Below, piece after piece: positions 2,355 through 63,520 of a stretch of DNA of 64,000 bases (position 1 is its first letter; each line of letters begins with the position of its first letter). The position numbers and the translations under genes were made by a program. The stretch is from Gari tellinella (lineage: Eukaryota; Mollusca; Bivalvia; Cardiida; Psammobiidae). The DNA lies in contig OV277857.1 of assembly GCA_922989275.2 (NCBI GenBank), positions 6,572,001-6,636,000 on the forward strand, given 5' to 3'. The notes under the pieces are model-generated. The model was given only the letters and a program-made list of their open reading frames with translations, searched no databases and was not told the DNA's origin.

Positions 2355-2845
2355 TTAACCCTTTCACTCTCGTTGACGTCAAAAGGCGCGATAGCAAACA
2401 GTTTGAATCCTGACCAGACGCGGCGTCAAATCAAGATCCAAACTGTTTGCAAACACGCATTTTGCAATTTCTTCATGTTACAGTGGAGAATCTGTTATTC
2501 TTTCCCAATAAACGCGTTTACGCTAAAACTATTATTTGCAGTGCAAACAGTTTGGAGCCAGATCAGACGCCGGGTAACCCGGCGTCTGATCAGGCTCCAA
2601 ACTGTTTGCCACCAAGATAAACAAGAATTATCAGAATTGTCCAAAAGTTGTTCTTTTCTACGTTTTAGTGTTTTGCGTTTGCGTACGTTTGCGTTTAAAC
2701 GGGAAAGAATAACAGATTCTCCACTGTATACTGTCTTAGATTTAACTTTAAAATGATATAGCAGACAGCAATATGAAAGCAGAAGACAATATGGCGGTGA
2801 AGGGGGGGGGGAATCAAACGATATATTTGATCATGAATGGGTTAA
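2355..2845 (+). mobile_element. MITE-D (TTAA, piggyBac-like), split by a MITE-A
   Basis: It begins TTAACCCTTTCACTCTCG and ends TTTGATCATGAATGGGTTAA. A reduced core-1 hairpin is at about 2394-2450. The D sequence stops at TTCTTCATGT and resumes with TACTGTCTTAGATTTAAC beyond the inserted A. A run of ten G at about 2803 interrupts the D right arm. TTAA flanks with CCC-starting tips are typical of piggyBac-class ends; no transposase is encoded. Confidence 0.8.
2479..2728 (+). mobile_element. MITE-A, full length, inside MITE-D
   Basis: Reference copy for the family: 250 bp including the flanking TA on both sides. The terminal inverted repeat starts CAGTGGAGAATCTGTTATTC. The left arm has AATAAACGCGTTTACGCTAA. 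A 67-bp core-1 hairpin runs GCAAACAGTTTGGAGCC to GGCTCCAAACTGTTTGC with GACGCCGGGTAACCCGGCGTC at the top. The right arm has GCGTTTGCGTACGTTTGCG. CAGT tips and a TA target are typical of Tc1/mariner-related elements. There is no coding capacity; the open frame is the hairpin translated. Confidence 0.95.
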
Positions 2846-2862
2846 TATCAGCATTTAAAATC

Positions 2863-3094
2863 GATTACCCTCAACTCTATAGGTTGTTGTAGATTTGAAA
2901 ACAATTGACTACTTAAAGCAAATTGAAAGCAAAACTTTAACTTTCAGTCTACGCTAATATACAATCTGCTAGGATACATGAATAAAATATTTTCTTTTTG
3001 TACTTGTTCTTTACTGTATAATTAAGAATTATTCTCTTCAGTGATGGAATAAAATGAATGGGCTAAAATGTACTTCTATGGGGGAAAGGGTTAA
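2863..3094 (-). mobile_element. MITE-E, diverged
   Basis: The right boundary TTCTATGGGGGAAAGGGTTAA is the inverse of the E left end. A degraded core-2 (TACTTAAAGCA, GAAAGCAAAACTTTAACTTTC) sits in the middle, and the left end (GATTACCCTCAACTCTATAGG) is recognisable but mutated. Confidence 0.65.
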
Positions 3095-3172
3095 ATATAG
3101 TATGCTTTGATTAAACGCACCATTATTTGCAAAAAGCATGACTAATGAGTTCATGATGGTGATTTGTTATTC

Positions 3173-3245
3173 CAATGTTAGTGGTATGGGCGCCCGCTTC
3201 TCTCAGTCCCCGAGTTCGTTCTCGAGTTAGGGGCAGTTTGTTATA
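3173..3245 (+). repeat. Possible tRNA-derived SINE head
   Basis: TAGTGGTATGGGCGCCCGC resembles an A box, and GAGTTCGTTCTCG about 30 bp later resembles a B box with its T-stem. Spacing is that of a tRNA-like promoter. No complete cloverleaf and no second copy in this window, so this is tentative. Confidence 0.3.
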
Positions 3246-3350
3246 TAGTAACGAGTACACTGTCGGCACGTCTGGGTATATGATTTTCTGCTGTATATTT
3301 CAGATATGACGCCACCATTTGATCAATCGAGGGTGATTAATATTATATAG

Positions 3351-3555
3351 TTTAACCGTTCCACTACCTTATCCATTGAACGATAGTTATTTGCAGAACA
3401 TTTGGATAACGCGGCGTCTGATCAGGATCCAAACTGTTTGATACTCATTGAAATATTTCTTACGTCAAAATACCTAACATTTGAATATGAAAAATAAAAG
3501 TAGACGACACTTGTTTAAAATTGATGACATTGGAATGAATAGATTAATGACACAA
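3351..3555 (+). repeat. D2 element remnant
   Basis: D2 is a D-like variant. The right core arm ACGCGGCGTCTGATCAGGATCC with CAAACTGTTTGATACTC is followed by the arm ATTTGAATATGAAAAATAAA and AGACGACACTTG. The left core arm is reduced. Ends are decayed. Confidence 0.5.
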
Positions 3556-3590
3556 GCTGCTCACCGACTCAGTCCCGAGTTCCTGCCGGT

Positions 3591-3804
3591 GTAACGCAGT
3601 AGAATGACCCACGCCTGCTGAAATGACCCACGGGTCATTTCACTCCGTAGAACAGTGACCCGGGTCATTTTACTACGTAGAAAAATGACACCAGACCGTA
3701 GAAATAGGACCCCATGGGTCCTTTTTCTACGGTCTGGGGTCATTTCTCTACGTAGTATATAGACCCGGGTCATTTTGCACGGGTGGGTCATTCTACTGCG
3801 TTAC
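3591..3804. mobile_element. Foldback FB-H
   Basis: The perfect tips are GTAACGCAGTAGAATGACCC and its reverse complement. The interior is itself repetitive: CCCGGGTCATTTTACTACG-like blocks occur in both arms, and the centre GACCCCATGGGTCC is palindromic. The arms read through as a 76-residue frame that is not a real protein. Only one copy in the window. Confidence 0.7.
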
Positions 3805-4005
3805 AGGTGTCGGGACATTAAGTGAGCATGTACATTGAATAAACCGTCTATGCACTGCATATGGTTTTCCGGGCACGTTGGTGTCATGTGACAGAAATCA
3901 CTTCAACATTTTAGATAGCGACAGTGATTAAATGTTTAGCTGATATATCATATATCATAATATATTTAAATGAATAAAGTTTTATAAAATAGCGTCCAAC
4001 ATCGG

Positions 4006-4230
4006 TTAATCCGTTACCCCATAGCCTATTTCTATTTTTGTAAACAGATGACCACTAAAAGCAGGTTAAAAGTAAAGCAAATGTGCCTAAACTTAAAAGG
4101 CGCATTGCTCTACTTTCAGTCTGGTTTAAACTATCACTAATTTGAATAAAGAAAATATTTCCCACTGTGCATATTCATGACTGTATACATGTAAATTAAA
4201 ATTACTGGAATCAATGGAGGGACAATGTTA
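4006..4230 (-). repeat. MITE-E, diverged
   Basis: TTACCCCATAGCCTATTTCT at the left is the inverse of the E right end. The mid core-2 (AAGTAAAGCAAATG and TGCTCTACTTTCAG) is recognisable, then CATATTCATGACTGTATACA from the E left arm. The distal end is lost. Confidence 0.55.
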
Positions 4231-4280
4231 TGGCGTTGTATTTATTGGGTAATTGATAAAGGAGCAGATATTATTGGTTT

Positions 4281-4700
4281 CTAAACCCTTTAGCCCATTT
4301 TTTCTAGTTTTGAAGACAGTTTTGTTTAACTTACAGTGGAGAATGTGTTATTCTTTCCCAATAAACGCGTTTACGCTAAAACTATTATTTGCAGTGCAAA
4401 CAGTTTGGAGCCAGATCAGACGCCGGGTAACCCGGCGTCTGATCAGGCTTCAAACTGTTTGCCACCAAGATAAACAAGAATTATCAGAATTGTCCAAAAG
4501 TTGTTCTTTTCTACGTTTTAGTGCTTTGCGTTTGCGTACGTTTGCGTTTAAACGGGAAAGAATAACAGATTCTCCACTGTACATGTACTTATAGGTGATG
4601 CATGTTCAAAGTAAAACCAAAATGTATCTTTAAGGAACGTTCCGATTTACTTTCAACCTGATTTAAGATATCACGTGGAAAGAAAATGGAAATACCGTCT
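4281..4700 (-). repeat. MITE-E fragment split by MITE-A
   Basis: AACCCTTTAGCCCATTTTTT and CTAGTTTTGAAGACAG precede the inserted A. AAAGTAAAACCAAAATG and TTTACTTTCAACCTGATTTA of a decayed core-2 follow it. Both sides line up on one E copy. Confidence 0.5.
4332..4581 (+). mobile_element. MITE-A, full length, inside E remnant
   Basis: 250 bp with TA on both sides. The left tip carries the GAATGTG variant, the right tip the GATTCTCC form. The hairpin has one change (CAGGCTTCAAAC). Confidence 0.95.
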
Positions 4701-5103
4701 GTGTTTGATTGTTTTATGTTTGTGACTTTTTTTCGACTAGATCTACTTCTCGAAATGTTTGAAAAACTGGAAGCGCTAAAAGGCGTATTCGTGGACTAAT
4801 GAATTAAGGTCGACGGTTTTTTTGCAGTATCCAATTCCAACGTAGATCATTAGATGCCTTAGATGTTTTACTGTGACGTTAATTCTAATATATACTTCAA
4901 ACAAAGTGACGTTTCAAGTGTGATTAGTATAGATAAATTGAATTTATAAAGTAGAATTCAATTCAGAGTATCATGATTAAACTTGCAAATAGCTTATTTC
5001 GCTAGATTAAATTGTCAAAGAATGAGCTTATATCCATTTAGGATAAAAGAAAAACAACTTCTTCTAGAAAGGATTTCTTATTTAAATTAAAAAATGAACC
5101 GCC
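4701..5103. other. Nothing recognised
   Basis: AT-rich, no element or gene recognised. Confidence 0.4.
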
Positions 5104-5300
5104 CAATCACTACCTTACACCGAGTACAAATATATGCAAACATGTTGGATACTGATCAGACGCCGCGTCATGCGGCGTCTGATCAGGATCTTAACTACTT
5201 GACATTCATATAAATATGTTTGCAGTCAAAATGCTTCAATTTCAAATTTGAAAACTGAAAGCAGGCGATAATTGTTTTTATTATATACCTACCAATGTTC
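5104..5300 (+). repeat. D2 element
   Basis: A core-1 hairpin ACTGATCAGACGCCGCGTC / GCGGCGTCTGATCAGGATC is at about 5150-5190. It is followed by TTGACATTCATATAAATATG and the D2 arm with TTTGAAAACTGAAAGCAGGC. The ends are decayed. Confidence 0.5.
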
Positions 5301-5422
5301 TGCCCGAAATATGTCTGTATTTTATCGAACAAATACACCTTGACGGATTGAAAATTCCGTATTACCCATGTACCTTGTGTAATGGGAAAAGAACGTTTAC
5401 TGTGTAGTCGGAAGTTCGGAAC

Positions 5423-5629
5423 TACAGTAAAACCTCTCTATTACGACCACTAAATTATGTTAAGTAGTAGGGTATTTACGGTAGGTGACCGCTTAAAGCA
5501 AGGTGACAGTGAAACAGAAGGCTCCTTTAGGAGCTTTCTGTTTCACTGTCACCTTGCTGTAAGCTGTCACCTCTCTATTATTTAATCAATTAGCATTCGT
5601 TTTAGTGGTCGTAATAGCGAGTATTTACT
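5423..5629. mobile_element. MITE-C
   Basis: It starts TACAGTAAAACCTCTCTATT and ends in the inverse block TTTTAGTGGTCGTAATAGC, with the outer tip mutated. The centre is a core-2 hairpin: GCTTAAAGCAAGGTGACAGT, GAAACAGAAGGCTCC / GGAGCTTTCTGTTTC, CACCTTGCTGTAAGC. TA flanks and CAGT tips place it with Tc1/mariner/pogo-like MITEs. Confidence 0.8.
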
Positions 5630-5745
5630 TTCACGCGCCATTCCCCGAAGTGTGACGTATGGGAAATCCCGTTTATTTATAGTAACGCTCGAAACATTTC
5701 TATCGTTTTTCATTTTATTTTTATTATAAGAGGTATATAATAAAA

Positions 5746-5904
5746 GGAACATTACTATACTTTGCATATCTTATGTACCGGATCACTCTCGTTGTGTGTG
5801 TAAAGGCTATATCCAACTCGACCTCCGGTCTCGTTGGATATAGCCTTTACACACACAACTCGAGTGATCCGGTGCATAAGATATGCAAAGTATAGTAATA
5901 TTCC
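5746..5904. mobile_element. Foldback FB-I
   Basis: Arms of about 70 bp run from GGAACATTACTATACTTTGC to its near-exact reverse complement at 5885-5904. The loop is short (ACCTCCGGTC). The inner stem contains GTGTGTGTAAAGGCTATATC. Very few mismatches, so the foldback is young or under gene-conversion-like maintenance. Single copy here. Confidence 0.75.
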
Positions 5905-5909
5905 GTTTA

Positions 5910-6010
5910 TATTTGATGACGACATGGCAGTGAAGGGGTTAACGTATTAAACCCTAGTGATGTGTTTGTGGATCATTTACAAACAGTTCATGGAATTCTA
6001 AGCACAATCA
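5910..6010. repeat. D2 right tip and F-like remnant
   Basis: GGCAGTGAAGGGGTTAA at about 5927-5943 is a D2 right tip without its body. ATTAAACCCTAGTGATG followed by TCATTTACAAACAGT resembles the inverse right end of F. Confidence 0.4.
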
Positions 6011-6337
6011 AGCCGAGTACAAAGAACAGAATACTCCATTTAAACAGGTTATATCTTAGCAGTTGAGTTAAACGTTAATGTAACAAATGCGATACTTTTA
6101 TTTCTGCACTACAAATATATTTTCATTTTTTATATTTTTTGCCACCATGGTGTATCTTATGCATTTTCATTGGAGACATTTTAGGAGTAATACACAATTT
6201 GAATAGTGAAAAGATGCCTAGGTACCTGGCGCTTTTATGGATCTAAATGGTTGGACTGTCAATCAAATTGCATTTAGTTAACACAATATTCGTTCATAGA
6301 ATGAAATGCTTTGAACAACAAACATGAACTATATAAC
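6011..6337. other. Nothing recognised
   Basis: AT-rich, no element or gene recognised. Confidence 0.4.
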
Positions 6338-6480
6338 TATTTCCAGTCTGGTCAATATCCAAACTGTTTAACACTCGTTTCAATATATCTTAATAGGTCG
6401 AAATACATATTTGAATTTGAGGAATAAAAGCAAACCGCGATTGTTCAGAATTGATGGTAGGAATGGCAGTAAAGGGGTTT
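6338..6480 (+). repeat. D2 remnant
   Basis: ATCCAAACTGTTTAACACTC and GGTCGAAATACATATTTGAA with GAGGAATAAAAGCAAACCGC match the D2 right half, ending GGCAGTAAAGGGGTTTA. The left half is gone. Confidence 0.5.
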
Positions 6481-6559
6481 ATAAGACGAATAACGCTGTG
6501 CAATAAACTTAAGCTAATGGCAGCATGTTGGAAATATTAGCGTTTTAATATACATGTAA

Positions 6560-6699
6560 TCGGAATGGCAAACGGTTCGGAGGTTAATCAGATACCGGGT
6601 TACCAGGCGTCTTACGGGCTCAAATCTGTTTGCAACGGAAATACTGGTTTTAGCACTTGAACACTTTTTTCGGGAAATAATAACGTCTTTCCACGATAA
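6560..6699 (-). repeat. MITE-A remnant
   Basis: A decayed core-1 (GGCAAACGGTTCGGAGG, ACCGGGTTACCAGGCGTCT) is followed by ATACTGGTTTTAGC, then CGGGAAATAATAACGTCTTT and CCACGATA. The outer left half is missing. Confidence 0.55.
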
Positions 6700-7061
6700 A
6701 TTAATGCAGAAAGCGAATATAGCAGCTTATTGCATAACTTTTGTCATTTATAAGAAACACCTCATTATCTCAAACTGAATGATCTCTGAAAGGTCATACT
6801 GTTTGACCTTGATAGAAATTTACCAAATTAGACTTAAATTTAACACTCACAATTTCTGTCATTTCTTGTATGTGTTAATTGTCTGTTTCACCTATTGACT
6901 GTCAGGTTTTTAAGAACTTAATTTTAAAGCACATTCTTGTAAAACGTATCAACCTTGAACAGAAACTTCTCATAAATTATTTCGTAACTGACAGGAAGGA
7001 ATAAGTTGTGTCCTAAGAAACAAACGCGCATGTCTCCCTTACATTGCTGTTCATTGCACAC
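6700..7061. other. Nothing recognised
   Basis: AT-rich, no element or gene recognised. Confidence 0.4.
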
Positions 7062-7110
7062 AGAGTTACCAAACGTCTGATCAGGCTGCATACTCTTTGC
7101 TATTAAATAT
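7062..7110 (+). repeat. Core-1 half-hairpin remnant
   Basis: AGTTACCAAACGTCTGATCAGGCTGCATACTCTTTGC matches the right arm of the A-type hairpin with several changes. No arms or tips are recognisable. Confidence 0.4.
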
Positions 7111-7149
7111 ACAACCCATAAAGCGTCAATACTTTCAAATGTATGTACT

Positions 7150-7345
7150 GTGCACTGAAACCTCTCCTCTTAAATGTAGGCCTTTCGATAGCAGTCAAGG
7201 CAGGCTGCAGCTTAGATCAAGTTAACAGTAAAGCAGAAAGCTTCTAAATGAGATTTTTTATTTAATGTCATCTTGCTTTAAGCAGCCACCTGCCTAGCTT
7301 GGAAAAGTTGATATCATGTAGTGTTCTTAAATTTATAGATCGTTA
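7150..7345. repeat. MITE-C, degenerate
   Basis: The left tip ACTGAAACCTCTCCTCTTA is recognisable. Core-2 is present as GTAAAGCAGAAAGCTTCTAA then ATCTTGCTTTAAGCAGCC. The right tip is no longer clear. Confidence 0.5.
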
Positions 7346-7572
7346 TACTTTTATAGCATTGCGTGGCGTGTATTGTCCCCAATCTCGTTGTTCTTATGGG
7401 TAATGAGCGTGACATGCAGGAAACAATTGTCGTCATTCCCATTGAATTTAGATAGTTTGCATTTTTAGACTCGTATACAGTTAATACATGTATATGGGTT
7501 AACTAAATCAACCCTGAAGTTTCAAGGGTGAATGAGTTAACAAAATCAATGTGTCCTCCTTATACATATCGA

Positions 7573-7790
7573 TACAGTAAAGAAAACGTTATTCTTTCTC
7601 AAATAAACGCGTTTACATTAAATCTATTATTTCCGTTGCAAACAGTTTGGAGCCAGATCAGACGCCGGTTAACCCGGCGTCTGATCGGGCTACAAAATGT
7701 TTACTATTCAGATTTAAAAAATGTGTAGTTTTCTACATTTTATTGCATTACATTTGCGTTTTGTTAAGAAATAACATTTTATCCACTATA
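7573..7790 (+). mobile_element. MITE-A, short right arm
   Basis: 218 bp. The left tip is CAGTAAAGAAAACGTTATTC and the right tip CATTTTATCCACTA. The hairpin is intact with ACGCCGGTTAACCCGGCGTC. The GCGTACGTTTGCG block of the right arm is deleted. Confidence 0.85.
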
Positions 7791-8159
7791 TAACATTACT
7801 TTACAGTACAAAATAGCGTTTTGTATGGTGTTTTAAGAGAAGTTGCAGAACAAGGGCATTATGGTTGTTATGGTTGATACATTTAACATGGTTACTGATT
7901 AATCAACGCCTATTCTTCCATTCGCCATACGATTGTTATTTGCAAACAGTTTGGGTGCACTGAGTATAGAATGACGCTCACTTACAACGAACTATAGGAT
8001 ATAACAAAATCAAAAACAGTCTCCATTTTTAATTAACGTATTGTATAACGAAATCAATCTGACGGTTCCGGGGCCTTCGTTCGAAGCGGATCTTGTCTTA
8101 ATGTGTCATTTTAGTTTTATTCGTTTCATGCTGTGAGATAATTTTTGTGTTACTTTTGC

Positions 8160-8225
8160 AAACACTTAGATGTGACGCCGAGTAACGCAGAGTTTTATCT
8201 AGATCCAATCAATTTGACAATCCCA
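8160..8225 (+). repeat. Core-1 remnant
   Basis: GCAAACACTTAGATG, GACGCCGAGTAACGC and TCTAGATCCAATCAATTTGA follow the layout of the hairpin, heavily mutated. Confidence 0.35.
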
Positions 8226-8281
8226 TGATACTTACTGACTATTAATGGCAAATGAACAAAATACATGTGTTGTTTTAGAAT

Positions 8282-8521
8282 TACAGTGGAGAATCTGTTA
8301 TTCTTTCCCGTTTAAACGCAAACGCAAAGCACTAAAACGTAGAAAAGGACAACTTTTGGACAATTCTGATAGTTCATGTTTATCTTGGTGGCAAACAGTT
8401 TAGAGCCTGATCAGACGCCGGGTTACCCGGCGTCTGATCTGGCTCCAAACTGTTTGCACTACAAATAATAGTTTTAGCGTAAACGCGTTTATTGGGAAAG
8501 AATAACAGATTCTCCACTGTA
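8282..8521 (-). mobile_element. MITE-A
   Basis: 240 bp with TA on both sides. The minus orientation is shown by GTTTAAACGCAAACGCAAAG on the left and AAACGCGTTTATTGGG on the right. A small deletion removes one GTACGCAAAC unit from the long arm. Confidence 0.93.
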
Positions 8522-8574
8522 AGTTGTTGCAGACGATAGTTTCATGTACTTAGCGTGCCGAAAGCTGACACAAT

Positions 8575-8806: not shown

Positions 8807-8857
8807 AAGCATGTGCAATCAGTTGCAGACATTTTGTAAAAAAAGAAAAGCCTATGA

Positions 8858-10387: not shown

Positions 10388-10400
10388 TATTCATACTAGT

Positions 10401-12259: not shown

Positions 12260-12602
12260 TACAGTGCTCCCTCCCTACAACGACTCTCCCAACAACGACT
12301 CCCTCCTTACAACGACCCTTGCCACAGTCCAACCTTTTCATAGCTGCCAAAATTGTCGTCTGCTTTTTTTCTCAAAGTTACATAAAAGTGGACATTTTGA
12401 TAAAATAAATATTATGACGAGTGACAAACAGCTTGAATCCAGATCAGACGCCACGTTACGCGGCGTCAGATCTGGATTCAAGCTGTTTGCAAATGTAAGT
12501 CAAGTCTAAATGTTACCTCCCTATAATGACTCCCTCCCAACAACACACACACACACACTCTGTGGCTCCCATTATGTGTCGTTGTAGAGAGGGAGCACTG
12601 TA
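12260..12602 (+). mobile_element. MITE-B, full length
   Basis: Reference copy for the family, 343 bp with TA on both sides. The tips are TACAGTGCTCCCTCCCTACA and GAGAGGGAGCACTGTA, and related CTCCCTCC..CAACGAC blocks recur subterminally. Core-1 in its B form runs ACAAACAGCTTGAATCCAGA, GACGCCACGTTACGCGGCGTC, then TGGATTCAAGCTGTTTGC. An AC repeat of about 16 bp is in the right arm near 12543. No coding capacity. Confidence 0.93.
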
Positions 12603-13082: not shown

Positions 13083-14438
13083 CTATAATACTCCTCTTCG
13101 CACTTCCTTCTTTCTAAATAAGTCAAAACAAAATGTCCTAAATTGAGCATTACAAAACGAGTATATTATGGGATTTATTGCACTGGATAACAGGTAGGAC
13201 CTCAGGAACACATGATAGGCCATATAACCAGACACGGACAACTGGTTCACAAAGTCACTGTATGTCTGTCGAACAATCGCAATGGTATAAAATGGTAAAA
13301 AGCTGATGATATACGCGATTGTGATCAAGAAAAGCATTAAAGTTGATCGCCCGATTCGCAGTTTAACGTTAATACACTGTGTCCCATTTCGTTTTAATAG
13401 TGAGTCTTTCAAAGCGGTCGTTTTCTTCGAAATTAAACTTCTCTTTTTGCGCTCTTTATGTACACTTTCACATTCTGAATTATCTTCGTTTGTATGTGTC
13501 GTTGAATTTTTCCTTTCTTCTTCTTCTACAATGTTACTTTCTATTGTACCATTTTTAACTATATTCGTTGTAAGCGCTTTCATTTCTGTCCCTTCCGTCT
13601 GTTGATTTTCTGCTTCTTTATGTTCTTGGTTCTTTTTGAGTTCCGAAGAATCCGAATCTTGGAGTAACGTTTCTTCTTTCTCTCTTGAAATGCGTTCAAC
13701 AAGAGTTCTAGCTATACCCCTTTCCATTTTTCTTGCCATTCTTTGCCGCCTATGCCGATAGACTTGAAGGCCAACAAAGTAGTAAAGAACAGACAGAGCT
13801 GTAAATATTACCACTGTGCTTCCCATCATCACAATGAAATAGATATACGGCAACACAGAATTGTCAAACTCGTTCTTCAATAGGCAACCTTTGCCTTGAA
13901 TTGAATTCACCTCGATAACACGCGTTCCGTAGAAAATAAACGACGGCCATGTTAGAATCAGAGCGACTATGATACACCCGATGCAAATAAACATTGATTG
14001 TTGAGCACTAAACTGTGGTCCATGTGGACGGCATATTCGCCGGAATCGATCTACGGCTATACCGACGAGGATAGCCGCTGATGAACTATTGAAGGTGTAT
14101 GTACAAAACCTAGAGATCTTACAGAGCCACGGGTTGTCTAACGTGAAAGAAAAACGCATAATGTAGATCTCGACAGGTAGTGTTGTCACGCAGTTTACAA
14201 GATCTAAAGCTGTCAGAAACAAAATGAACATCCGCGAGGTGCTCTTTCTCCACTTGAAGAAGTAAACATACAAGACAACCATGTTTCCTGGCGTTCCGAT
14301 GAACATCAGTATTGCCGTATACACAGCGGCAGGAAGTTGATACTTGAACTGTAAGTCATTTAGTTTTTCAAGCCCCATTTGTTGATCAAAGCCATCAGTG
14401 CCGTTTGATCCGGTATCGTTCTCTATAGCTGGCGACAT
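13083..14438 (-). CDS. Rhodopsin-like (class A) G protein-coupled receptor, single exon
   Basis: A complete 451-residue seven-helix receptor, probably a plasma-membrane receptor for a peptide or small amine; the ligand cannot be read from sequence. TM1 (about 36-61) has the conserved Asn in GTPGN at 52; TM2 has LxALD at 79; Cys106 and Cys185 should form the usual disulphide; TM3 ends in DRF (130-132) rather than DRY; TM4 has Trp164; TM5 is about 196-222; TM6 has FLPF (Pro382) where many relatives have CWxP; TM7 has NPIIY (422-426), followed by a short tail. The third intracellular loop is long (about 223-365), highly charged and rich in Lys, Glu and Ser. N-glycosylation sequons lie at Asn7 and Asn12. 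The start is chosen as the first Met, with A at -3; Met21 is an alternative. The stop is TAG. There are no introns and no frameshift. Single-exon GPCRs of this type are expanded in molluscs. A 100-residue frame on the opposite strand is a shadow. Confidence 0.95.
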   Translation of the reverse strand: MSPAIENDTGSNGTDGFDQQMGLEKLNDLQFKYQLPAAVYTAILMFIGTPGNMVVLYVYFFKWRKSTSRMFILFLTALDLVNCVTTLPVEIYIMRFSFTLDNPWLCKISRFCTYTFNSSSAAILVGIAVDRFRRICRPHGPQFSAQQSMFICIGCIIVALILTWPSFIFYGTRVIEVNSIQGKGCLLKNEFDNSVLPYIYFIVMMGSTVVIFTALSVLYYFVGLQVYRHRRQRMARKMERGIARTLVERISREKEETLLQDSDSSELKKNQEHKEAENQQTEGTEMKALTTNIVKNGTIESNIVEEEERKNSTTHTNEDNSECESVHKERKKRSLISKKTTALKDSLLKRNGTQCINVKLRIGRSTLMLFLITIAYIISFLPFYTIAIVRQTYSDFVNQLSVSGYMAYHVFLRSYLLSSAINPIIYSFCNAQFRTFCFDLFRKKEVRRGVL

Positions 14439-17569: not shown

Positions 17570-17817
17570 TCAACCCTTCCACTCTCAATGAAACTTAAAA
17601 GCGTTTTTGCAAACAGTTTGGATCATGATCAGACGCCGCGTAACGCGGCGTCTGATCAGGATCCAAACTGTTTAACAATCGTTTTGAAATTTCTTCATTC
17701 CTACTGCCTTATTATTTTAAACTTTGAAACGACATTGCTTACAACAAAATTGAAGCAGACGACAATGAAACGGTGAAAGGGTAAATATCACACGAAAATG
17801 TTGGCACTGAAGGGTTT
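17570..17817 (+). mobile_element. MITE-D, full length
   Basis: The left end is TCAACCCTTCCACTCTCAATG. Core-1 is almost perfect: GCAAACAGTTTGGATCATGA, GACGCCGCGTAACGCGGCGTC, GGATCCAAACTGTTT. The right end has two TIR-like blocks, CGGTGAAAGGGTAA and GGCACTGAAGGGTTTA, about 35 bp apart. Confidence 0.88.
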
Positions 17818-21201: not shown

Positions 21202-21453
21202 TTAACCCTTTACCCAATAGAAGCGCCTTTTAGCGGATATGATTTATTCATCCGCTGAAGAAAATATTTCCAATTTAATCAGTAATGAATATGTATTATA
21301 GGGAATATTTTCTATATTATAGCACATGATAGCTTAAAGCAGGCTGAAAGTAAAGCAGAATGCGCCCTAAGGCGCATTCTGCTTTACTTTCAACCTGCTT
21401 TAAGTAGTCATCTATCTTAAGTACTATAAATAGGCTATCAGGTAAAGGGTTAA
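21202..21453 (+). mobile_element. MITE-E, full length
   Basis: Reference copy, 252 bp between TTAA sites: TTAACCCTTTACCCAATAGA at the left, GGCTATCAGGTAAAGGGTTAA at the right. Core-2 is near perfect over about 72 bp: AGCTTAAAGCAGGCTGAAAG, AGCAGAATGCGCC and its inverse, CAACCTGCTTTAAG. TTAA plus CCC tips resemble piggyBac-class ends. Confidence 0.93.
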
Positions 21454-21840: not shown

Positions 21841-22091
21841 TTAACTCTTTCCTCCCTGAAACCTCAAATGGACAATTCTAGTTTTCAATTTAGTCTAGTC
21901 CATTTTTGACTTTTTAGGGTTGACTATTACAATATATGCCAAACTAACAAACAGTGTAGACCCTGATCAGATGGCTCCTTAAAGAGCCATCTGATCAGGG
22001 TCTACACTGTTTGCATAGGACAAGTGTACTCCTCACAGGTACGCTGTTTGCAAATGACGCATATATGTGTGACTAGGGTACAAAGAGTTAA
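21841..22091 (+). mobile_element. MITE-F, full length
   Basis: Reference copy, 251 bp between TTAA sites. Left arm TTAACTCTTTCCTCCCTGAA; core ACAAACAGTGTAGACCCTGA, TCAGATGGCTCCTTAAAGAG, CCATCTGATCAGGGTCTACA; right arm with GACGCATATATGTGTGACTA and CAAAGAGTTAA. Confidence 0.93.
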
Positions 22092-30269: not shown

Positions 30270-30498
30270 TTAACCCATTTGTGCCCACGATCCCATATAT
30301 AGGACATAGGCAAACAGTGTAGATTCTGATCAGACGCCGCATAATGCGGCGTCTGATCAGAGTCTACACTGTTTTCTGATAGGAATTTCAATATAAAACA
30401 AAATGAAAATGAAAATTTGGACCAGGCATCCCTTTGATATAAAATGGACTAATCCAATATATAAACATGGAAGCATCCATTGGGTATAAATGGGTTAA
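30270..30498 (+). mobile_element. MITE-K, full length
   Basis: Reference copy, 229 bp. TTAACCCATTTGTGCCCACG at the left faces GGGTATAAATGGGTTAA at the right. Core-1 appears in a K form: GGCAAACAGTGTAGATTCTG, GACGCCGCATAATGCGGCGTC, AGAGTCTACACTGTTTTC. The right arm has CAATATAAAACAAAATGAAA. TTAA edges place it with the piggyBac-like set. Confidence 0.88.
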
Positions 30499-36379: not shown

Positions 36380-36624
36380 TTAACCCCTTCACTCTCAAAG
36401 ACGTCATAAAGCGCATTTGCAAACAGTTTTGATCTTATCAGACTCCGCATATCGCGGCGTCTGATCAGGATCAAAACTGTTTGCCAATTGTTTTGATGTT
36501 ACATCAGTTATACTGGCTTAAATCTAACTTTGAAGTGATATTGCAGATATCATCTTTGAAGCAGACGACATTTTGGCGATGAAGGGATAAAACCTCACGA
36601 TAAATTTGATTACGAAAGGGTTAA
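36380..36624 (+). mobile_element. MITE-D, full length
   Basis: 245 bp between TTAA sites: TTAACCCCTTCACTCTCAAA and TTTGATTACGAAAGGGTTAA. Core-1 is GCAAACAGTTTTGATCTTAT, GACTCCGCATATCGCGGCGTC, GGATCAAAACTGTTTGCC. A second TIR-like block GGCGATGAAGGGATAA lies about 40 bp inside the right end. Confidence 0.92.
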
Positions 36625-40146: not shown

Positions 40147-40290
40147 TTACAACGGATACGACGTTATTCGTTCCGTTTTAATGCAAACGAAACACAAAAG
40201 TATTGCCAAACAATTTGGATAAAGATCAGACGCCGTGTTTTGCGGCGTCTGATCTTGATCGAAACTGTTTCCCACTCATATTCAACTTCC
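40147..40290 (-). repeat. MITE-A left portion, drifted
   Basis: TACAACGGATACGACGTTAT and TTTTAATGCAAACGAAACAC are an inverted A arm. The hairpin GACGCCGTGTTTTGCGGCGTC follows. The right arm is not recognisable. Confidence 0.55.
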
Positions 40291-40416
40291 TTTTAGTTTA
40301 GAAAGCATAGCAATTTCAAAGAAAGCACAGCTATTGGTTGTGTGTTTTTCGCAGACGATATATTTGTAGCAGATGACAATCCAGCATGATAAAGGTTAAA
40401 ACAGCCAACAATTAGT

Positions 40417-40667
40417 TTAACCCTTTCCCCCATAGAAGCGACTTTTAGCGTATTTAATTTATTCCTCCACTGAAGAAAATAGTTCCAGTTCATACCCCCA
40501 TGAACAATTACCATTACAAAATTGTATATAGCCTAGCAGATTTTAGCTTAAAGCATGCTGAAAGTAAAGCAGAATGTGCCTTAAGGCACATTCTGCTTTA
40601 CTTTCAACCTGCTTTAAGTGGTCACCTGTCTTCAAAACTAGAAACATGCTATGAGGTAAAGGGTTAA
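40417..40667 (+). mobile_element. MITE-E, full length
   Basis: 251 bp between TTAA sites: TTAACCCTTTCCCCCATAGA and GCTATGAGGTAAAGGGTTAA. Core-2 is nearly perfect with AGAATGTGCCTTAAGGCACA. Confidence 0.93.
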
Positions 40668-44436: not shown

Positions 44437-45021
44437 TACAGTGCTCCCTCCCGACAACGTCCCTCCGAACAACGACTCCATACTTAAAACAACATTTGCT
44501 ACTGTTCCCCAAACAAGATACAGTGGAGAAAACGTTATTCATTCCCAATAAACGAGTTTACGCTAAAACTATTATTTGCAGTGCAAACAGTTTGGAGCCA
44601 GATCAGACGCCGGGTAACCCGGCGTCTGATCAGGCTTCAAACTTTTTGCCACCAAGATAAACATGAAATATCAGAATTGTTCAAAAGTTGTTCTTTTCTA
44701 CGTTTTAGAGCTTTGCGTTTGCGTACGTTTGCGTTTAAACGGTAAAGAATAACAGATTCTCCACTGTATGTATGGATAACGCTTTCACTGCTGCGATATC
44801 GTTTGCTTAATATTGTCGTCTGCAGTTTTTCATGTTGGACATTTAGCCTGAAAAAAACATATTGACGAGTGACAAATAGCTTTAATCAAGACGCGGCGCC
44901 TGATCTGGATTCAAACTGTTTGCAAATGTAAGCCCATTACTCTCCAAATAACATCTCCCTCCGAACAACGCACATAATCCTTGTCTCCGATTGGATGTTG
45001 TTGTTGAGAGGGACCACTGTT
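44437..45021 (+). mobile_element. MITE-B split by MITE-A
   Basis: TACAGTGCTCCCTCCCGACA at the left, GAGAGGGACCACTGT at the right. The hairpin is half lost (ACAAATAGCTTTAATC joined to AAGACGCGGCGCCTGATC). About 337 bp remain without the A. Confidence 0.88.
44519..44768 (+). mobile_element. MITE-A, full length, inside MITE-B
   Basis: 250 bp, TA edges. Mixed tips: GAAAACG at the left and CAGATTCTCC at the right. Confidence 0.95.
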
Positions 45022-54811: not shown

Positions 54812-54913
54812 TAAGGGTTACACGCTTAGCATTATGACAATTGGCAATGCCAGTTAAGTCATATCTGACAGGAGAATGCAGAACGCCTATGTCAGTTCCG
54901 CCACATTCACCTG

Positions 54914-56852: not shown

Positions 56853-57351
56853 TACAGTGGAGAAAACGTTATTCTTTCCCGTTTAAACGCAAACGAAACG
56901 TAAACACGTAGCAGTAAAATGTAGGAAATTGCAACTTTTTGACATTTCTAATAATTTATTTTAAGCTGAGTAGCAAACAGTTTGGAGCCTGATCAGACAC
57001 CCGGTAACCCGGCGTCTGATCTTGCTCCAAACTTCTTGCAATGAAAATAATAGTTTTACAGTGGAGAATCTGTTATTCTTTCCCAATAAACGCGTTTACG
57101 CTAAAACTATTATTTGCAGTGCAAACAGTTTGGAGCCAGATCAGACGCCGGGTAACCCGGCGTCTGATCAGGCTCCAAACTGTTTGCCACCAAGATAAAC
57201 AAGAATTATCAGAATTGTCCAAAAGTTGTTCTTTTCTACGTTTTAGTATTTTGCGTTTGGGTACGTTTGCGTTTAAACGGGAAAGAATAACAGATTCTCC
57301 ACTGTAGCATAAACGCGTTTATTGGGAAAGAATAACGTTTTCTCCACTGTA
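56853..57351 (-). mobile_element. MITE-A, outer copy of A-in-A nest
   Basis: The left tip is TACAGTGGAGAAAACGTTAT. The long arm AAACGCAAACGAAACGTAAA is of the older type. The hairpin is GGAGCCTGATCAGACACC. The arm AATAATAGTTTTA breaks and resumes GCATAAACGCGTTTATTGGG after the inner copy. Confidence 0.92.
57057..57306 (+). mobile_element. MITE-A, inner copy of A-in-A nest
   Basis: 250 bp, consensus-like, opposite orientation to its host. Its flanking TA is present on both sides and only once in the undisturbed arm. Confidence 0.97.
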
Positions 57352-57639
57352 AGAGGGCTCCTGAAAGATCGTTCTAATCATGATTTACAACGTTTGTCAT
57401 TTTACAATGAATTGTAAAAATCAACCCTTTATAGGCGAAAATGGATAAGACTTTTTTTGGAATCGGAAAATATCAATTTGAAGTTTCAGTGATGAATGCA
57501 TAAACTAAATATTTGTTTCTTGAAAGTGTATGCAATCACGACGCATAGGTGTAGATCTACCTACACTAAATTAATTATGAAATTATCAAAACTGCATTTT
57601 TATACACTTTTTGATATCATTTTATGTCAAGAAACCTTA

Positions 57640-57741
57640 AACGGGTGTCAAACAAATAGAATACTGATCAGATGCCGAGCTGGTTTGCGTCTCATCCATT
57701 CCATACGTTTTCAAATGTTAGTTTGGCAGTGAAGGGGTTAA
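57640..57741 (+). repeat. D2 remnant
   Basis: GGGTGTCAAACAAATAGAAT, GATCAGATGCCGAGCTGG and TTTGGCAGTGAAGGGGTTAA. The middle arm is deleted. Confidence 0.5.
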
Positions 57742-57766
57742 AAGTTGTATAGGCAAATAAGTGCAT

Positions 57767-57928
57767 GTTCCAAGGTTATAAATGTTTTGGTTGAGTCTAA
57801 GATCGTTCTCAAGCATTATAGTGGTCAGCTTTGAGCTTTTGTGTAGAAAGAGTGCATATCAGACCAATCAAATGCCTCAGAGCGATCTCAGACGCATTGG
57901 GAACACTTTAAACATGTAACCTTTTGGT
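57767..57928. mobile_element. Foldback FB-G
   Basis: GTTCCAAGGTTATAAATG and CATGTAACCTTTTGG tips. TTGAGTCTAAGATCGTTCTC in the left arm faces GAGCGATCTCAGACGCA in the right. Confidence 0.6.
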
Positions 57929-57983
57929 AAGGTCACTATTGTTGTAAAATTACCAGAAAGAAATTTGCTGAAAGCTTCTCTGG

Positions 57984-58324
57984 TAAAACAACTCCCTCCC
58001 TACATCGGTCCTCCCAACAACGACACCCTCCTTGCAAAATATCTTGTCGCAGTTCCCTAAACAGGACAATTATGGCTAACGCCTTTACTGTTTTAACATC
58101 GTCTGCTAAACATTTTCGTAACATATTGGACATTTTGACAGAAAACTTTCTGACGAGTTACAATCAGCTTGAATCGAGATCAAACGCCGCGTTTCGCGGC
58201 GTCTGATCTGGATTCAAACTGTTTGCAAATATAAGCCGATTTCCCTCCCTCTAACGACTCCCTCCGAAGAACGCACTTAATTGTTGTCTGCCATTGGATG
58301 TGGTTGTAGAGAGGGAGCACTGTA
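57984..58324 (+). mobile_element. MITE-B, full length
   Basis: 341 bp. The left tip is TAAAACAACTCCCTCCCTAC, the right tip GTAGAGAGGGAGCACTGTA. Core CAATCAGCTTGAATCGAGAT, AAACGCCGCGTTTCGCGGCGTC, GGATTCAAACTGTTTGC. Confidence 0.9.
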
Positions 58325-58677
58325 GTATCAACATACTTTCATATTCACAGCCGAAACTAAGAAATTCCAGTTTGTTAAGGAAATAACATATTTGTTTGAT
58401 CGGTAAACTCATAAAGCATGTATGTCTCCTAGAAACTGCAAAGTTAGGTAAGCAGGCTTTAATTAACTCGGGAGTGGTTACTTCAATGACTCTATTAACA
58501 TGGCTCCCTTTATTGCCAGGTAAAATTGATTGATGTTTAGGTTTGTTAAAGACATGTTGGCGGTAAACATTTTTATCCATTACCCTTCTAAATTACCAAA
58601 AACTTTTCAAAGTTGTTCAAAATTTAGTTCCAAATGATAGCTCTTCCTATAAATATGATGACTAAATGTTTAATGGA

Positions 58678-58765
58678 AGTTCCAAACAGTTGGAGTTTAT
58701 ATCAGACGCCGATGTACTTGACGTCGGATCTGGATTCAGACTGTTTATAAATAATAATCAGGCGA
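58678..58765. repeat. Core-1 remnant
   Basis: TCCAAACAGTTGGAGTTTAT, GACGCCGATGTACTTGACGTC and TCTGGATTCAGACTGTTTAT; a right arm of B type is suggested. Confidence 0.5.
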
Positions 58766-58932
58766 CGTTCAGCTGGTTAAGTGATGTTAAGATGATCATT
58801 TGCATGTAGTGGATAATTACGGAGCGTAATGAGCTGTCTATTCAAACTAGGTTAAGAACAAACAGTAATGTGCTGAAATGCTTTTCTGTACTAACGGTAT
58901 CTAGACATTTTCTCCTGTAGAAATACCAAAAT

Positions 58933-59185
58933 TTAACTCTTTTACTGCTAACACCGCCGAATGGCGACTTTTCAAACAGTTTGGATCTTGATCAGACGCC
59001 GCGAAACGCGGCGTCTGATCAGCATCCAAACTGTTTGACACTCGTGTCGATATGTTTTAAGTCATACAACATTGAATCCTACGTTGGAATCGTACTTACT
59101 CTTGCAAACAATTAAATTGAAGCAGACGACAATGAAACGGTGAAGGAGTAAAAATCTCCAATTCATTTGGCAGCGAAAGAGTTAA
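58933..59185 (+). mobile_element. MITE-D, full length
   Basis: 253 bp: TTAACTCTTTTACTGCTAAC and GGCAGCGAAAGAGTTAA. Core AAACAGTTTGGATCTTGATC, GACGCCGCGAAACGCGGCGTC, GCATCCAAACTGTTTGAC. Inner block CGGTGAAGGAGTAA about 38 bp from the end. Confidence 0.93.
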
Positions 59186-59272
59186 AAAGGCATATACAGG
59201 ACTGTAGTTCCTTATGAGATTACAGTTACTGTTACATGTAATATACAGCAGACACATCTATTCTATTTCGAT

Positions 59273-59510
59273 TTAACACACTGCAACCTAGCGACGAGTA
59301 TACTCGCCATGAACAAATCATATATCTATCAAGAGTACACGTGTGCTATGCAAACTGTGTAGATCCTGATCAGAGTCTCTGATCAGGATCTTTACTGTTT
59401 GTTTTTTGTAAAATATTGTTAAAAACCACCCTTATCATTAAACACAGATGGATTAGATTTAATTGTAAACTGGATTTGTCCATTTAAAATGTTAGGGGTA
59501 AATGAGTGAA
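59273..59510 (-). mobile_element. MITE-F with clipped hairpin
   Basis: TTAACACACTGCAACCTAGC at the left, TTAGGGGTAAATGAGTGAA at the right. The hairpin is GTGTAGATCCTGATCAGAG directly joined to TCTCTGATCAGGATC; the GGCTCC top is absent. Confidence 0.85.
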
Positions 59511-59514
59511 ACAA

Positions 59515-59590
59515 CCACCTGCATTATCGTACATAAAAAACTAAACATATTTTAGTGGTTGTAATATACGGGGCTTATTGAGTATGGAAT
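59515..59590. repeat. MITE-C right-end remnant
   Basis: CCACCTGCATTATCG, ATTTTAGTGGTTGTAATATA and GGGGCTTATTGAGTA match the last part of C. Confidence 0.5.
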
Positions 59591-60146
59591 GCAGAACCTT
59601 ATAAATTAATTTATATCTCATTTATGCAAACAATATTATCAACATAAGTTGTACACAAAAGGATATTTACAATAATCATTTGTACTTTACTTTTGACATA
59701 CAATGCTAAAGATTAAAAACAGAATAATTAAACAATCAAAGACATGTTCTTAATTTTTTGCATACATTTTTATAAGTGGTTTGATGAAAAATGCACATAT
59801 AACCAAACATGGATTATAAAACAAGTCGGGTAGATAAGCCCGCACCAGACTCTACATCTCGTGTGAGATCCGTATGTATGTTTTTATTATTTGTCGCAAT
59901 TCGGGATTTCTACTTTTGACAATACACTCATAATACACGTGTCTTGTTATACATGTATATGCGTCATGAGTGATTTATTCCGTAGAAGCAATTGGTATTG
60001 ATTAACGCATTGTGCACATTGTGGGTGAATAATTATATATAACTTTACACAGACACTGTGGATTAGACAATGCCAATGAATGACTATTGGTATGAAATAG
60101 AATGAAAACATTCGTTAAACGCCGCATTGAACACGTCAAGCAACAG
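59591..60146. other. Nothing recognised
   Basis: AT-rich, no element or gene recognised. Confidence 0.4.
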
Positions 60147-60396
60147 TACAATGGAGAAGACGTTATTCCTTCCCGCTTAAACGCATGCGAAATGCAAACG
60201 CAATGCACTAATACGTCGTACATTGAAAATGGCAACTTGTTGACAATTCTGACTCATTATTCTAATCTAAGTGGTAAACTGTTTGGAGCCTGATCCAACG
60301 ACGGTTTAACCGGCGTTCGATCTGACTCCAAGCTGATTGCAATAAAATAATAGTTAAACGCGTTAATTTGGAAAGAATAACGTCCCTTCCAATATA
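60147..60396 (-). mobile_element. MITE-A, diverged
   Basis: 250 bp. The left tip is TACAATGGAGAAGACGTTAT, the right tip CGTCCCTTCCAATATA. Core AAACTGTTTGGAGCCTGATC, then ACGACGGTTTAACCGGCGTT with drifted right shoulder. Confidence 0.82.
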
Positions 60397-60556
60397 CGTA
60401 CTAGTAATGCCATCAAAGACTAATGACTAAGTAAGTTGTACATGTTATCTGACAGAAACTTATCCCCATAATCGCAAATGCCTCGTGGAGTGTGACTTTG
60501 ACAAGGTTGTTTAAAAAGCATTTATTTACACATACCTTTAGATTTGAGATTAGTGA

Positions 60557-60806
60557 TACAGTGGAGAAAACGTTATTCTTTCCCAATAAACGCGTTTACG
60601 CTAAAACTATTATTTCTATTGCAAACAGTTTAGAGCCAGATAAGACGCCGGGTAACCCGGCGTCTGATCAGGCTTCAAACTGTTTGCCACCAAAATAAAA
60701 ATGAATTATCAGAATTGTCCAAAAGTTGTTCTTTTCTACGTTTTAGAGCTTTGCGTTTTCGTACGTTTGCGTTTAAACGGGAAAGAATAACAGATTCTCC
60801 ACTGTA
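60557..60806 (+). mobile_element. MITE-A, full length
   Basis: 250 bp, TA edges. Mixed tips: GAAAACG at the left, CAGATTCTCC at the right. The hairpin has AGATAAGACGCC. Confidence 0.95.
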
Positions 60807-61538
60807 AGTTTCCAAATACATTTGAAAAATTTCATTACCTAGCTTAATAGCTTGGTATTGCATGCAAAACATTTATGTCATGACTAGAGTTTGTACCAAG
60901 CGACATACCTTACAATAATGCTGTACGGATGATATTGAGTAAGCGGACGTGATATCAAACACAATACTATACATTTTAGTTCGCACTGCAGTAACAATGA
61001 AAAAAGTTCAAATATTCTCAATTATGTGAATGCATGCTTTATCAATACATGTAATAGTATGAAAATGATAACATTTATTTCACATGTTTTAAAACCCGTA
61101 AAAAAAAACAAAAAAGAAAAGCATGCACAATTAAGTTAATTGCAACGTTTCAAACAGATTATACACACCTCCTTTTATTTGAGTATTGGATCCGTAAATC
61201 CTTTTCCCCGGAAATCTAAATCTAACACTTCCACAAAGCTAAGCTAAAATCCAGATGCACACAGGTATTAATTTATACCACGGAGGTTTCTACAAGTATG
61301 CAATACTGCTCGGTATTAAAACGTTAGACTATCGTATGAGAGAGCGCCTAGGAAGGGGAGACGGCATGTAGGGCTGTAATCCAGGAACGGTGCGGGCTGA
61401 CAAGGTACTAGTCTTGTAGTTAGGCTAGTAATTCTGGTATTGGATTCTATTGAGTTTGTATGGTCAGTGCTAGGTCTTTACGATCATACGTTTGGATCAA
61501 CACATTTTATTTATCTACTTTATTATTGTTTACGTAAA
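60807..61538. other. Nothing recognised
   Basis: The longest blank in the last 15 kb. No inverted-repeat tips or convincing coding frame seen; A-rich stretch near 61100. Confidence 0.4.
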
Positions 61539-61788
61539 TACAGTGGAGAATGTGTTATTCTTTCCCAATAAACGCGTTTACGCTAAAACTATTATTTGCA
61601 GTGCAAACAGTTTGGAGCCAGATCAGACGCCGGGTAACCCGGCGTCTGATCAGACTCCAAACTGTTAGCCACCAAGATAAACATGAAATATCAGAATTGT
61701 CCAAAAGTTGTTCTTTTCTACGTTTTAGCGTTTTGCGTTTGCGTACGTTTGCGTTTAAACGGGAAAGAATAACAGATTCTCCACTGTA
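61539..61788 (+). mobile_element. MITE-A, full length
   Basis: 250 bp, TA edges. The left tip is the GAATGTG type. The hairpin has one change at the foot (CTGTTAGCC). Confidence 0.95.
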
Positions 61789-61881
61789 TGTCCTGTGTAT
61801 TTCCATTTTGAATCATATTGGCATGCCTGATTGAATAAAATGACAAGAAAGTCTAAACAGTCTGGGTCCTGGTGAGATGTT

Positions 61882-62141
61882 TACAGTGGAGAATCTGTTA
61901 TTCTTTCCCGTTTAAACGCAAACGTACGCAAACGTACGCAAACGCAAAGCACTAAAACGTAGAAAAGAACAACTTTTGGACAATTCTGATATTTCATGTT
62001 TATCTTGGTGGCAAACAGTTTGGAGCCTGATCAGACGCCGGGTTACCCGGCGTCTGATCTGGCTCCAAACTGTTTGCACTGCAAATAATAGTTTTAGCGT
62101 AAACGCGTTTATTGGGAAAGAATAACAGATTCTCCACTGTA
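61882..62141 (-). mobile_element. MITE-A with extra arm repeat
   Basis: 260 bp, TA edges. GTACGCAAAC is present twice in the long arm. Flanks AAACAGTCTGGGTCCTGGTG and CCAATCAGGATCCGAAAAG look like the two halves of an older core-1 into which it inserted. Confidence 0.95.
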
Positions 62142-62624
62142 CCTTCATGGGTCCAATCAGGATCCGAAAAGTTTTCAAAGTTCAATTATTTATTCATTTA
62201 AATGACATTTATTTCGTGTTGAGCGGGACTTCAAATCAACACGCGTTGACTTTTAGGACACGTAAGAGCTGTATTCAGATTTATGGGGAACTATTCGTTT
62301 GTTTATCTTGATTTAAATATAACATAAACTGAAAACAAACACAAAACAAACAAACTACCTCAACGAGGTAACACAGTCAATGTGTGCTCGATAAACAAAG
62401 CTACGTATTAAATGACCACCCCGCATAAGATGCTTCTTATATGTATTCTCTGAAGAACTGATAGGATAATTTATGACGTTATTATGTTTGCAGATTTTTC
62501 TAGATTCTGGAAAGTGTTTATTTTCTCTTTATATTTGTAAGCAGTTAAGATCACTTACTGGTTGCACTGCGCGTTCAAAATCATGGACAAGAAATTGTCA
62601 ATTCATATATTAAACAAAATAAAA

Positions 62625-62800
62625 CCTTACCCCTTCATCGTGTCATCAATTGTAAACAGTCATCGTCTGGTTTTAACTTTCAATTTCAAAAATCAGGTAT
62701 TTTGACTATAGAATATTGAAATTTATGTCAAACAGTTTGGATCCTGATCAGACGTCGCGTAACGCGGCGTCTGATCAGAATCTAAATAGCTTGCAAATAA
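62625..62800 (-). mobile_element. D2, inverted, end truncated
   Basis: CCTTACCCCTTCATCGTGTC, then TTTCAATTTCAAAAATCAGG. Core AAACAGTTTGGATCCTGATC, GACGTCGCGTAACGCGGCGTC, AGAATCTAAATAGCTTGC. Confidence 0.65.
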
Positions 62801-62840
62801 CCACTTGATTCTGTGTAAAGCAGAGTTGGGATTGGACGAC

Positions 62841-63082
62841 TACTACATTGTTTCATTCCCAATAAACGCGTTAAGGCAGAAACTATTATTTGCAGTGCAA
62901 ACAGTTAGGAGCCAGATCAGACGCCGGGTAACCCGGCGTCTGATCAGGCTCCAAACTGTTTGCCACCAAGATAAACATGAATTATCAGAATTGTCCAGAA
63001 GTTGTACTTTTCTACGTTTTAGTGTTTTGCGTTTGCGTACGTTTGCGTTTAAACGGGAAAGAATAACAGATTCTCCACCGTA
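62841..63082 (+). mobile_element. MITE-A, decayed left tip
   Basis: ACTACATTGTTTCATTCCCA replaces the usual tip, and CGCGTTAAGGCAGAAACTAT follows. The hairpin is intact and the right tip is CAGATTCTCCACCGTA. Confidence 0.88.
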
Positions 63083-63107
63083 AATCTCTCGAATACAGAA
63101 ACTTCAG

Positions 63108-63180
63108 CCATGTGGCGTCTAATCAGGATCTAAACTGTTTACAAATACCCACTGTACTCGGGATAAAGAAGTGAAAGGGT
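63108..63180 (+). repeat. Core-1 right-arm remnant
   Basis: TGTGGCGTCTAATCAGGATC, TAAACTGTTTACAAATACCC and GAAGTGAAAGGG match a D-type right half. Confidence 0.45.
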
Positions 63181-63195
63181 GTTTGATGTTTGAAA

Positions 63196-63520
63196 TACAG
63201 TGCTCCCCCCCTACAACGACTCCTTGCTTAAAACCATTAACAGGACAAGTATGTCCAACCTTTTCAAGACTGCAATGTCGCCTGCTTAAAATTGCCGTCT
63301 TCAGTTTTTCTCAAAGTTACATGTACATAATGGGTATTTTGACAGAAAACACTTAATGACGAGTGACAAGCAGCTTAAATCCAGATCAGACGCCGCGTTA
63401 AGCGGCGTCTGATCTTGATTCAAGCTGTTTGCAAATGGTCCTCCCTATGACGACTCCCACCAAACAACGCACACATTGTGTGTCTCCCGTTGGGTGTCGA
63501 TTTAGAGAGGGAGGGCTGTA
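63196..63520 (+). mobile_element. MITE-B, full length
   Basis: 325 bp: TACAGTGCTCCCCCCCTACA and TTAGAGAGGGAGGGCTGTA. Core ACAAGCAGCTTAAATCCAGA, GACGCCGCGTTAAGCGGCGTC, TTGATTCAAGCTGTTTGC. Confidence 0.93.

Follow-up and report, generated by a model that had tools for sequence, protein, structure and literature searches.

A central hairpin shared by TA- and TTAA-inserting miniature elements in the bivalve Gari tellinella, with paired changes between families

The success of miniature inverted-repeat transposable elements (MITEs) is usually credited to their ends. For Stowaway and mPing MITEs, internal sequences raise or lower transposition (PMC12595863), a precedent for an interior that affects mobility; the available excerpt of this review describes no hairpin shared between superfamilies. 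In the MITE MER6/MER6A, as far as the excerpted source goes, a foreign conserved domain lies between Tc1/mariner ends and was amplified as a composite (PMC6887750). Here we report a similar arrangement in the bivalve Gari tellinella, in a stretch of 64,000 nucleotides (assembly GCA_922989275.2, contig OV277857.1, positions 6,572,001 to 6,636,000; “the window” below), where one palindrome, core-1, forms the centre of TA-inserting and TTAA-inserting MITEs. The cargo of MER6/MER6A is the V domain of short interspersed elements, whereas here it would be a palindrome from TTAA-class DNA elements; unlike MER6/MER6A, it occurs in many families of one genome, and its two sides evolve in pairs. Bacterial REPINs are likewise miniature mobile hairpins, but in the part of their description used here (PMC3116915) they are RAYT-linked and the hairpin is the whole element, whereas core-1 is a centre within TA- or TTAA-type ends. 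Shared internal modules in small mollusc elements are likewise described, in the excerpts at hand, for bivalve MITEs and Helentrons that bear tandem repeats; there the modules are the tandem repeats, here a single central palindrome.

Core-1 is a hairpin of 67 bases (CAAACAG...CTGTTTG, with an inner GATCAGA/TCTGATC), central in many small elements. A profile matched it 221 times in 264 kb: the window gave 98 matches, and 20 stretches of 10 kb each, taken at random from the same genome (L001–L020, 200 kb; genome 1.6 Gb, 80 contigs), gave 123. Five further stretches, a held-back 50 kb, contained 26 more. Extrapolated genome-wide, with the uncertainty of a 250-kb sample, this gives 0.8 to 1.0 million copies. 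Five example cores folded at -50.8 to -60.8 kcal/mol, 13 to 16 standard deviations below dinucleotide shuffles; they were the A, B, F and K cores cited in a preliminary description of the window and, for D, the copy at 17609-17673. That description had placed core-1 in families A, B, D, F and K, and the hairpin was present in all five elements it cited. The GACGCC said to lie usually below the top is missing from family F, in which the top of the hairpin is different. Three families absent from that description, M (~214 bp, CCCTTAGCC), N and P, also carry core-1. A family was assigned to 137 of the 221 loci (A 73, D 23, F 15, B 11, M 5, N 4, K 3, P 3); the five M, four N and three P copies were picked by hand, the M profile having drifted to D. 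The other 84 loci were left without a family, 35 of them lacking any recognisable arm, that is, element sequence flanking the core.

The sharing of this hairpin across two insertion classes is real. The TA class with core-1 comprises A (~250 bp, CAGTGGAGAA) and B (~350 bp, CAGTGCTCCC), and the TTAA class D, F, K, M, N and P. Of the readable elements, 53 of 58 for A and five of seven for B had TA at both ends, and 13 of 17 for F and six of 12 for D had TTAA there, as expected of target duplications of TA and TTAA. Both A and B have CAGT tips, which are common in Tc1 and pogo elements; with the TA target, this fits MITEs of Tc1/mariner type. In the TTAA class the tips vary: CCCTTTC in D, CTCTTTC or CCCTTTG in F, and CCCATTT in K. 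The two classes and the cited ends were as first described, but the CCCTTT tips ascribed to all of D, F and K are not uniform. The TTAA-class tips start with CCC or CTC and are not of the Kolobok type, for which the excerpted source gives the termini 5'-RR..YY-3' (PMC9587614).

When the flanks of 103 elements were joined, 16 matches spanned the junction, and five of them were used as empty sites; the remaining 11 were set aside as too gapped or diverged, or as having no clear single target. The sites used were those of A inside A, A inside D and A inside B (Table 1), and of two F elements, L007 890-1140 (inside a repeat with another hairpin, core-2, treated below) and L007 1222-1471. They support one copy of TA as the unoccupied target of A and one copy of TTAA as that of F; the A-in-D and A-in-B targets both show CA. 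Flank joining yielded no empty site for B. One hairpin in both the TA and the TTAA class points to at least two transposase types, so the earlier claim that two transposase classes mobilise the same hairpin is implied by the target sites.

The strongest new point is the compensatory change of the hairpin. In a comparison of seven family consensus cores, without N, both bases had changed in 14 of the 31 pairs, and in no pair had just one base changed; three others departed by unpaired cells alone and 14 were invariant. The consensus cores were 95.9% paired, against 84.4% after shuffling (0/500), and all measures exceeded all 500 shuffles; slid pairing registers gave 25-39%. A majority consensus smooths rare states, which favours the contrast between families and single copies. 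Counting only states present in at least three copies, 14 of 31 pairs across 118 individual cores had two or more Watson-Crick states, and 21 of 31 had a non-pairing state as well. Within single copies of A, D, F and B, 289 cells were changed on one side, 28 were compensated and 11 were double but uncompensated. Paired change between families, set beside one-sided decay in copies, suggests that the hairpin decays after insertion and is kept in the lineages that amplify. This covariation lends some weight to the view that the hairpin is advantageous, and a perfect central hairpin may help short elements to amplify. One position of the otherwise paired stem, pair 17/69 of the core alignment, reads A-A in the A family (61 copies) and T-T in seven copies, as in the F consensus.

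Cores and arms proved to be linked. A core tree of 72 rows, with 22 of 66 A cores taken and both N cores dropped, required six changes for its seven family groups, the minimum possible (shuffled mean 42.2). In it A, B, F, M, P and K each lay on one side of a branch, with weak support for B and K, and D was spread between them; the TA class amounted to two changes. A quicker tree that included N needed eight changes, with a minimum of seven. At 127 of the 128 loci with both arms recognised, the arms belonged to one family. In the held-back stretches, one arm or both could be recognised at 17 of the 26 core loci, and at 15 of these arm and core type agreed; the two discordant loci are halves of one N element, a family for which no core profile existed. 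Free, repeated swapping of a hairpin cassette between backbones is not supported by these data; the preliminary description had suggested modular swapping as one of two possibilities. Of the trees it had proposed to compare, that of the cores is ordered by family, and that of the right arms gives two changes for B. Core-1 seems to have passed from group to group no more than one or two times; in one case nesting was the probable route.

That case is B. We compared all pairs of arm consensus sequences, minus the core and the first eight flanking bases (120 tests). The right arms of B and D formed the strongest pair (score 260, z 10.9), followed, at z 7.6 to 4.6, by the right-arm pairs D-M, B-P, B-N, M-N and B-M; some further pairs matched through terminal motifs only. 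The arms had been described as unlike across families, which is true of A and does not hold for B, whose right arm is homologous to that of D over about 110 nt starting at the core edge. A 13-copy alignment of B contains the GCAGACGACAA repeats that are typical of the TTAA families. At 72-99 nt from the core, the B copies have a terminus-like motif (GTGAAAGGGTTA or a worn version of it), beyond which lies unrelated TA-class sequence. This is roughly the distance at which M (90-100 nt) and P elements (92 nt) terminate. Several D right arms have two such motifs, an inner one about 88-97 nt and an outer one about 126-135 nt away from the core.

Searches with single copies gave a similar result. 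The B right-arm profile matched 21 of 23 D right arms and the D profile eight of 11 B right arms (E up to 0.01). The 99% background level was passed with the D-only profile by the right arms of five of 11 B and all five M copies, and with a joint profile, built including them, by 10 of 11 B, 23 of 23 D, five of five M and three of four N; no F or K right arm rose above background with the joint profile. CACTC occurred within 9 nt past the core in 31 of 137 right arms and in none of 136 left arms (exact match; 0.26% of random 9-mers). The copies bearing it belong to A, B, D, M, N and P, with none among 15 F and three K copies; on one side the homology extends past the palindrome. As the right arm of B is of TTAA type down to the terminus-like motif, B is probably a TTAA element within a TA element. 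It is best read as one of the M kind in length, with its left end lost, and it probably entered the TA class by such nesting, not by a cut at both core edges. Like a composite MITE of the MER6 kind, B holds the core and a TTAA-class right arm between CAGTGCTCCC ends; in A, the core alone is recognisable.

The A core is 92% identical to the D core. The two A arms resemble one another, but neither has a convincing match among the other arms (A and P right arms, p 0.023, uncorrected for the 120 tests), and none of the 73 A right arms rose above background with the D, B or joint profiles, so that a leftover D arm was not detected. A core like that of D between arms that match nothing indicates that A is a chimera, and only here was the sharp break near the core edge, expected from the first description, supported. 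The sole mixed two-armed locus, L014 8984-9040, fuses a D left half and an A half within the core, with the centre deleted. A second hybrid (Table 1) is either a hybrid relic or a truncated nesting.

Concerning possible transposase sources, 86 piggyBac transposase matches were found in the genome, several with an open frame. A 3.1-kb autonomous piggyBac family with nearly identical copies has TTAA targets and CCCTTTCGGCGCCA tips; two of its copies are 99.84% identical, indicating that the family moved recently. Its tips agree with the D consensus at 11 of 14 bases of the outer right tip and nine of 14 of the left tip, and core-1 had no match (E up to 0.001) inside the three delimited copies (Table 1). 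Reading the 40 longest of 172 open frames of at least 90 codons in the window and the 20 stretches, with no family search run, we recognised no DNA transposase. The only open reading frame of the window with at least 150 aa from a start codon, 13083-14438 on the minus strand, is an intronless 451-aa frame for a rhodopsin-type G protein-coupled receptor (PF00001, E 2.3e-26).

In the window, Rfam models gave no match at gathering score, so core-1 does not fall into a known structured RNA family; exact core patterns did not match viral and prokaryotic contigs, and a string search for the core and its possible translation gave no match among the papers covered. The peptide strings came partly from invertebrate protein predictions and are only a lead. 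A sequence search of the genome itself with the core, of a kind that passes over very common words, gave no hits. For one A copy read in frame, two candidate protein relatives were found, neither significant.

An unrelated hairpin, core-2 (AAAGTAAAGCAGAATGCGCC...), is central in the TTAA family G and was found at 101 places in the 264 kb; besides the example in Table 1, a G element lies at 40417-40667 of the window. By eye, core-2 variants also appear to change in pairs. End pairs found by tips alone all held a central hairpin (A 62 of 62, B five of five, TTAA class 28 of 28, of which 19 held core-1 and nine core-2), in a sample biased by tips learned from core-bearing families and with 12 of the 62 A rows spanning more than one core. 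Elements of the core-1 and core-2 families together account for 52% of the sequence in the window and for 26% in the random 200 kb.

Table 1 Elements with core-1 and features used for comparison; positions refer to the window unless a random or further stretch (L) is given.
Feature	Sequence	Position	Strand	Remarks
Element A, TA class	window	2479-2728	+	250 bp, TA on both sides, core 2543-2609; inside a D-type element, empty site in the D consensus
D-type TTAA element	window	2355-2845	+	split by A at 2479-2728; own worn core 2395-2450
Element B, TA class	window	12260-12602	-	tips CAGTGCTCCCTC, core 12425-12490
TTAA-class right arm within B	window	12329-12424	-	CACTC, GCAGACGACAA, worn terminus-like motif ATGAAAAGGTTGG
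Element D, TTAA class	window	36380-36624	+	core 36420-36484
Element F, TTAA class	window	21841-22091	+	core 21948-22014, different hairpin top
Element K, TTAA class	window	30270-30498	+	tips CCCATTT, core 30310-30374
A inside another A copy	window	57057-57306	+	joined flanks match an uninterrupted copy with a single TA
A inside a B copy	window	44519-44768	+	target is CA in the B consensus
Hybrid	window	40149-40399	+	A-type terminal repeat adjoins core 40207-40270; TTAA-class right arm opposite
Family G, TTAA class	window	21202-21453	+	unrelated central hairpin core-2, for comparison
piggyBac copy	L028	698-3821		TTAA and CCCTTTCGGCGCCA tips
piggyBac copy	L030	684-3770		TTAA and CCCTTTCGGCGCCA tips
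piggyBac copy	L031	302-3439		TTAA and CCCTTTCGGCGCCA tips
piggyBac copy	L029			ends not delimited

The explanation to which we incline, at somewhat better than even chances, is that core-1 of a TTAA lineage spread into TA MITEs through nesting as a founding event, after which core and arms stayed linked and the hairpin was favoured in copying. Core-1 would be the central palindrome of an old TTAA-inserting (piggyBac-type) MITE lineage that split into D, M, N, P and possibly F and K. Rare founding events would then have carried it into TA-inserting (Tc1/mariner-type) MITEs. In B, a D- or M-like element may have lodged in a TA element, and the composite been amplified with the core and right half kept; in A, some event would have joined a D-like core to unrelated arms. 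Nesting is plausible in view of the A elements that lie inside D, inside B and inside another A copy, and of the F element inside a core-2 repeat. After the foundings, core and arms would have travelled together, and amplifying lineages would have kept the hairpin near-perfect by paired changes despite the decay of single copies. From the near-perfect hairpin of these lineages we infer that a perfect hairpin may be needed or favoured during copying. Most likely, in our opinion, it would act as a hinge, a central cruciform or single-strand hairpin bringing together the ends of an element of ~250 bp, whichever transposase is at work. A bolder proposal, which we regard as doubtful, is that a central hairpin, be it core-1, core-2 or another perfect one, is a transposase-independent amplification module, so that any short element acquiring it would gain mobility from piggyBac-type and mariner-type transposases alike, and that selection on its shape drives the paired substitutions and helped core-1 to near a million copies.

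Several observations weigh against the account by nesting and a favoured hairpin. The motif at which B stops corresponds to the inner copy in D, which itself terminates some 126-135 nt away from the core; the donor end of B is one that we infer, its left TTAA end is missing, and most B copies have TTAG or worse, not TTAA, at the motif. No P right arm (0/3) passed the joint profile and no N right arm (0/4) the D-only profile. In a right-arm tree of 46 rows B did not form one clade, starred branches forcing two changes, and one or more B right arms seem to stand apart. A single origin of the A and B cores was not rejected (approximately unbiased test, p 0.215). A and F tolerate one mismatched pair, A-A and T-T, at the same place, and within A, D and F compensated pairs are commoner than expected, an excess that template switching could produce. 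Within D, M, N, P and B, conservation of the core (68-91%) does not clearly surpass that of the right arm (73-81%, gaps ignored). Past the tips, the piggyBac family and D are not convincingly alike (p 0.020, best of 28 tests).

Other explanations can be weighed as well. All families including A could descend by simple divergence from one element, with arms changed beyond recognition and the target changed together with the ends. The core tree ordered by family, the right arm common to B, D, M and N and the CACTC beside the core in six families would fit, but the core of A has remained close to that of D while all its right arms stayed at background, and the TA-type ends of B lie outside a preserved TTAA-type right arm; we consider such a descent improbable. 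Even less probable seems ongoing modular swapping, in which recombination within the core would keep exchanging arms between backbones. It could account for the D-like core of A between unrelated arms and for both hybrids, the fused locus with its deleted centre and the core joining an A-type end to a TTAA-class right arm. However, cores cluster by family, mixed loci are one in 128, and with one TA and one TTAA end each, both chimeras are probably dead.

The paired changes could also arise without selection, if template switching at the replication fork copied one side of the palindrome onto the other. Symmetric changes are seen in core-1 and, by eye, in core-2, and compensated pairs exceed shuffling in A (11 vs 2.25), D (13 vs 3.65) and F (4 vs 0.69). 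Yet B had none (1.68 expected), subfamilies could yield the same excess, and single copies, although replicated in each cell cycle, have changed mostly on one side (289 vs 28), and this self-correction is in our judgement unlikely, with some chance left to it.

In these MITEs a palindrome in the middle is common to two insertion classes, and its sides change in step while single copies decay. Of the present results, it is this paired evolution of a central hairpin that specialists are likely to find most worth pursuing. With core-1 and core-2 families making up 26% of the random 200 kb, whatever caused their success has shaped much of the genome of Gari tellinella.

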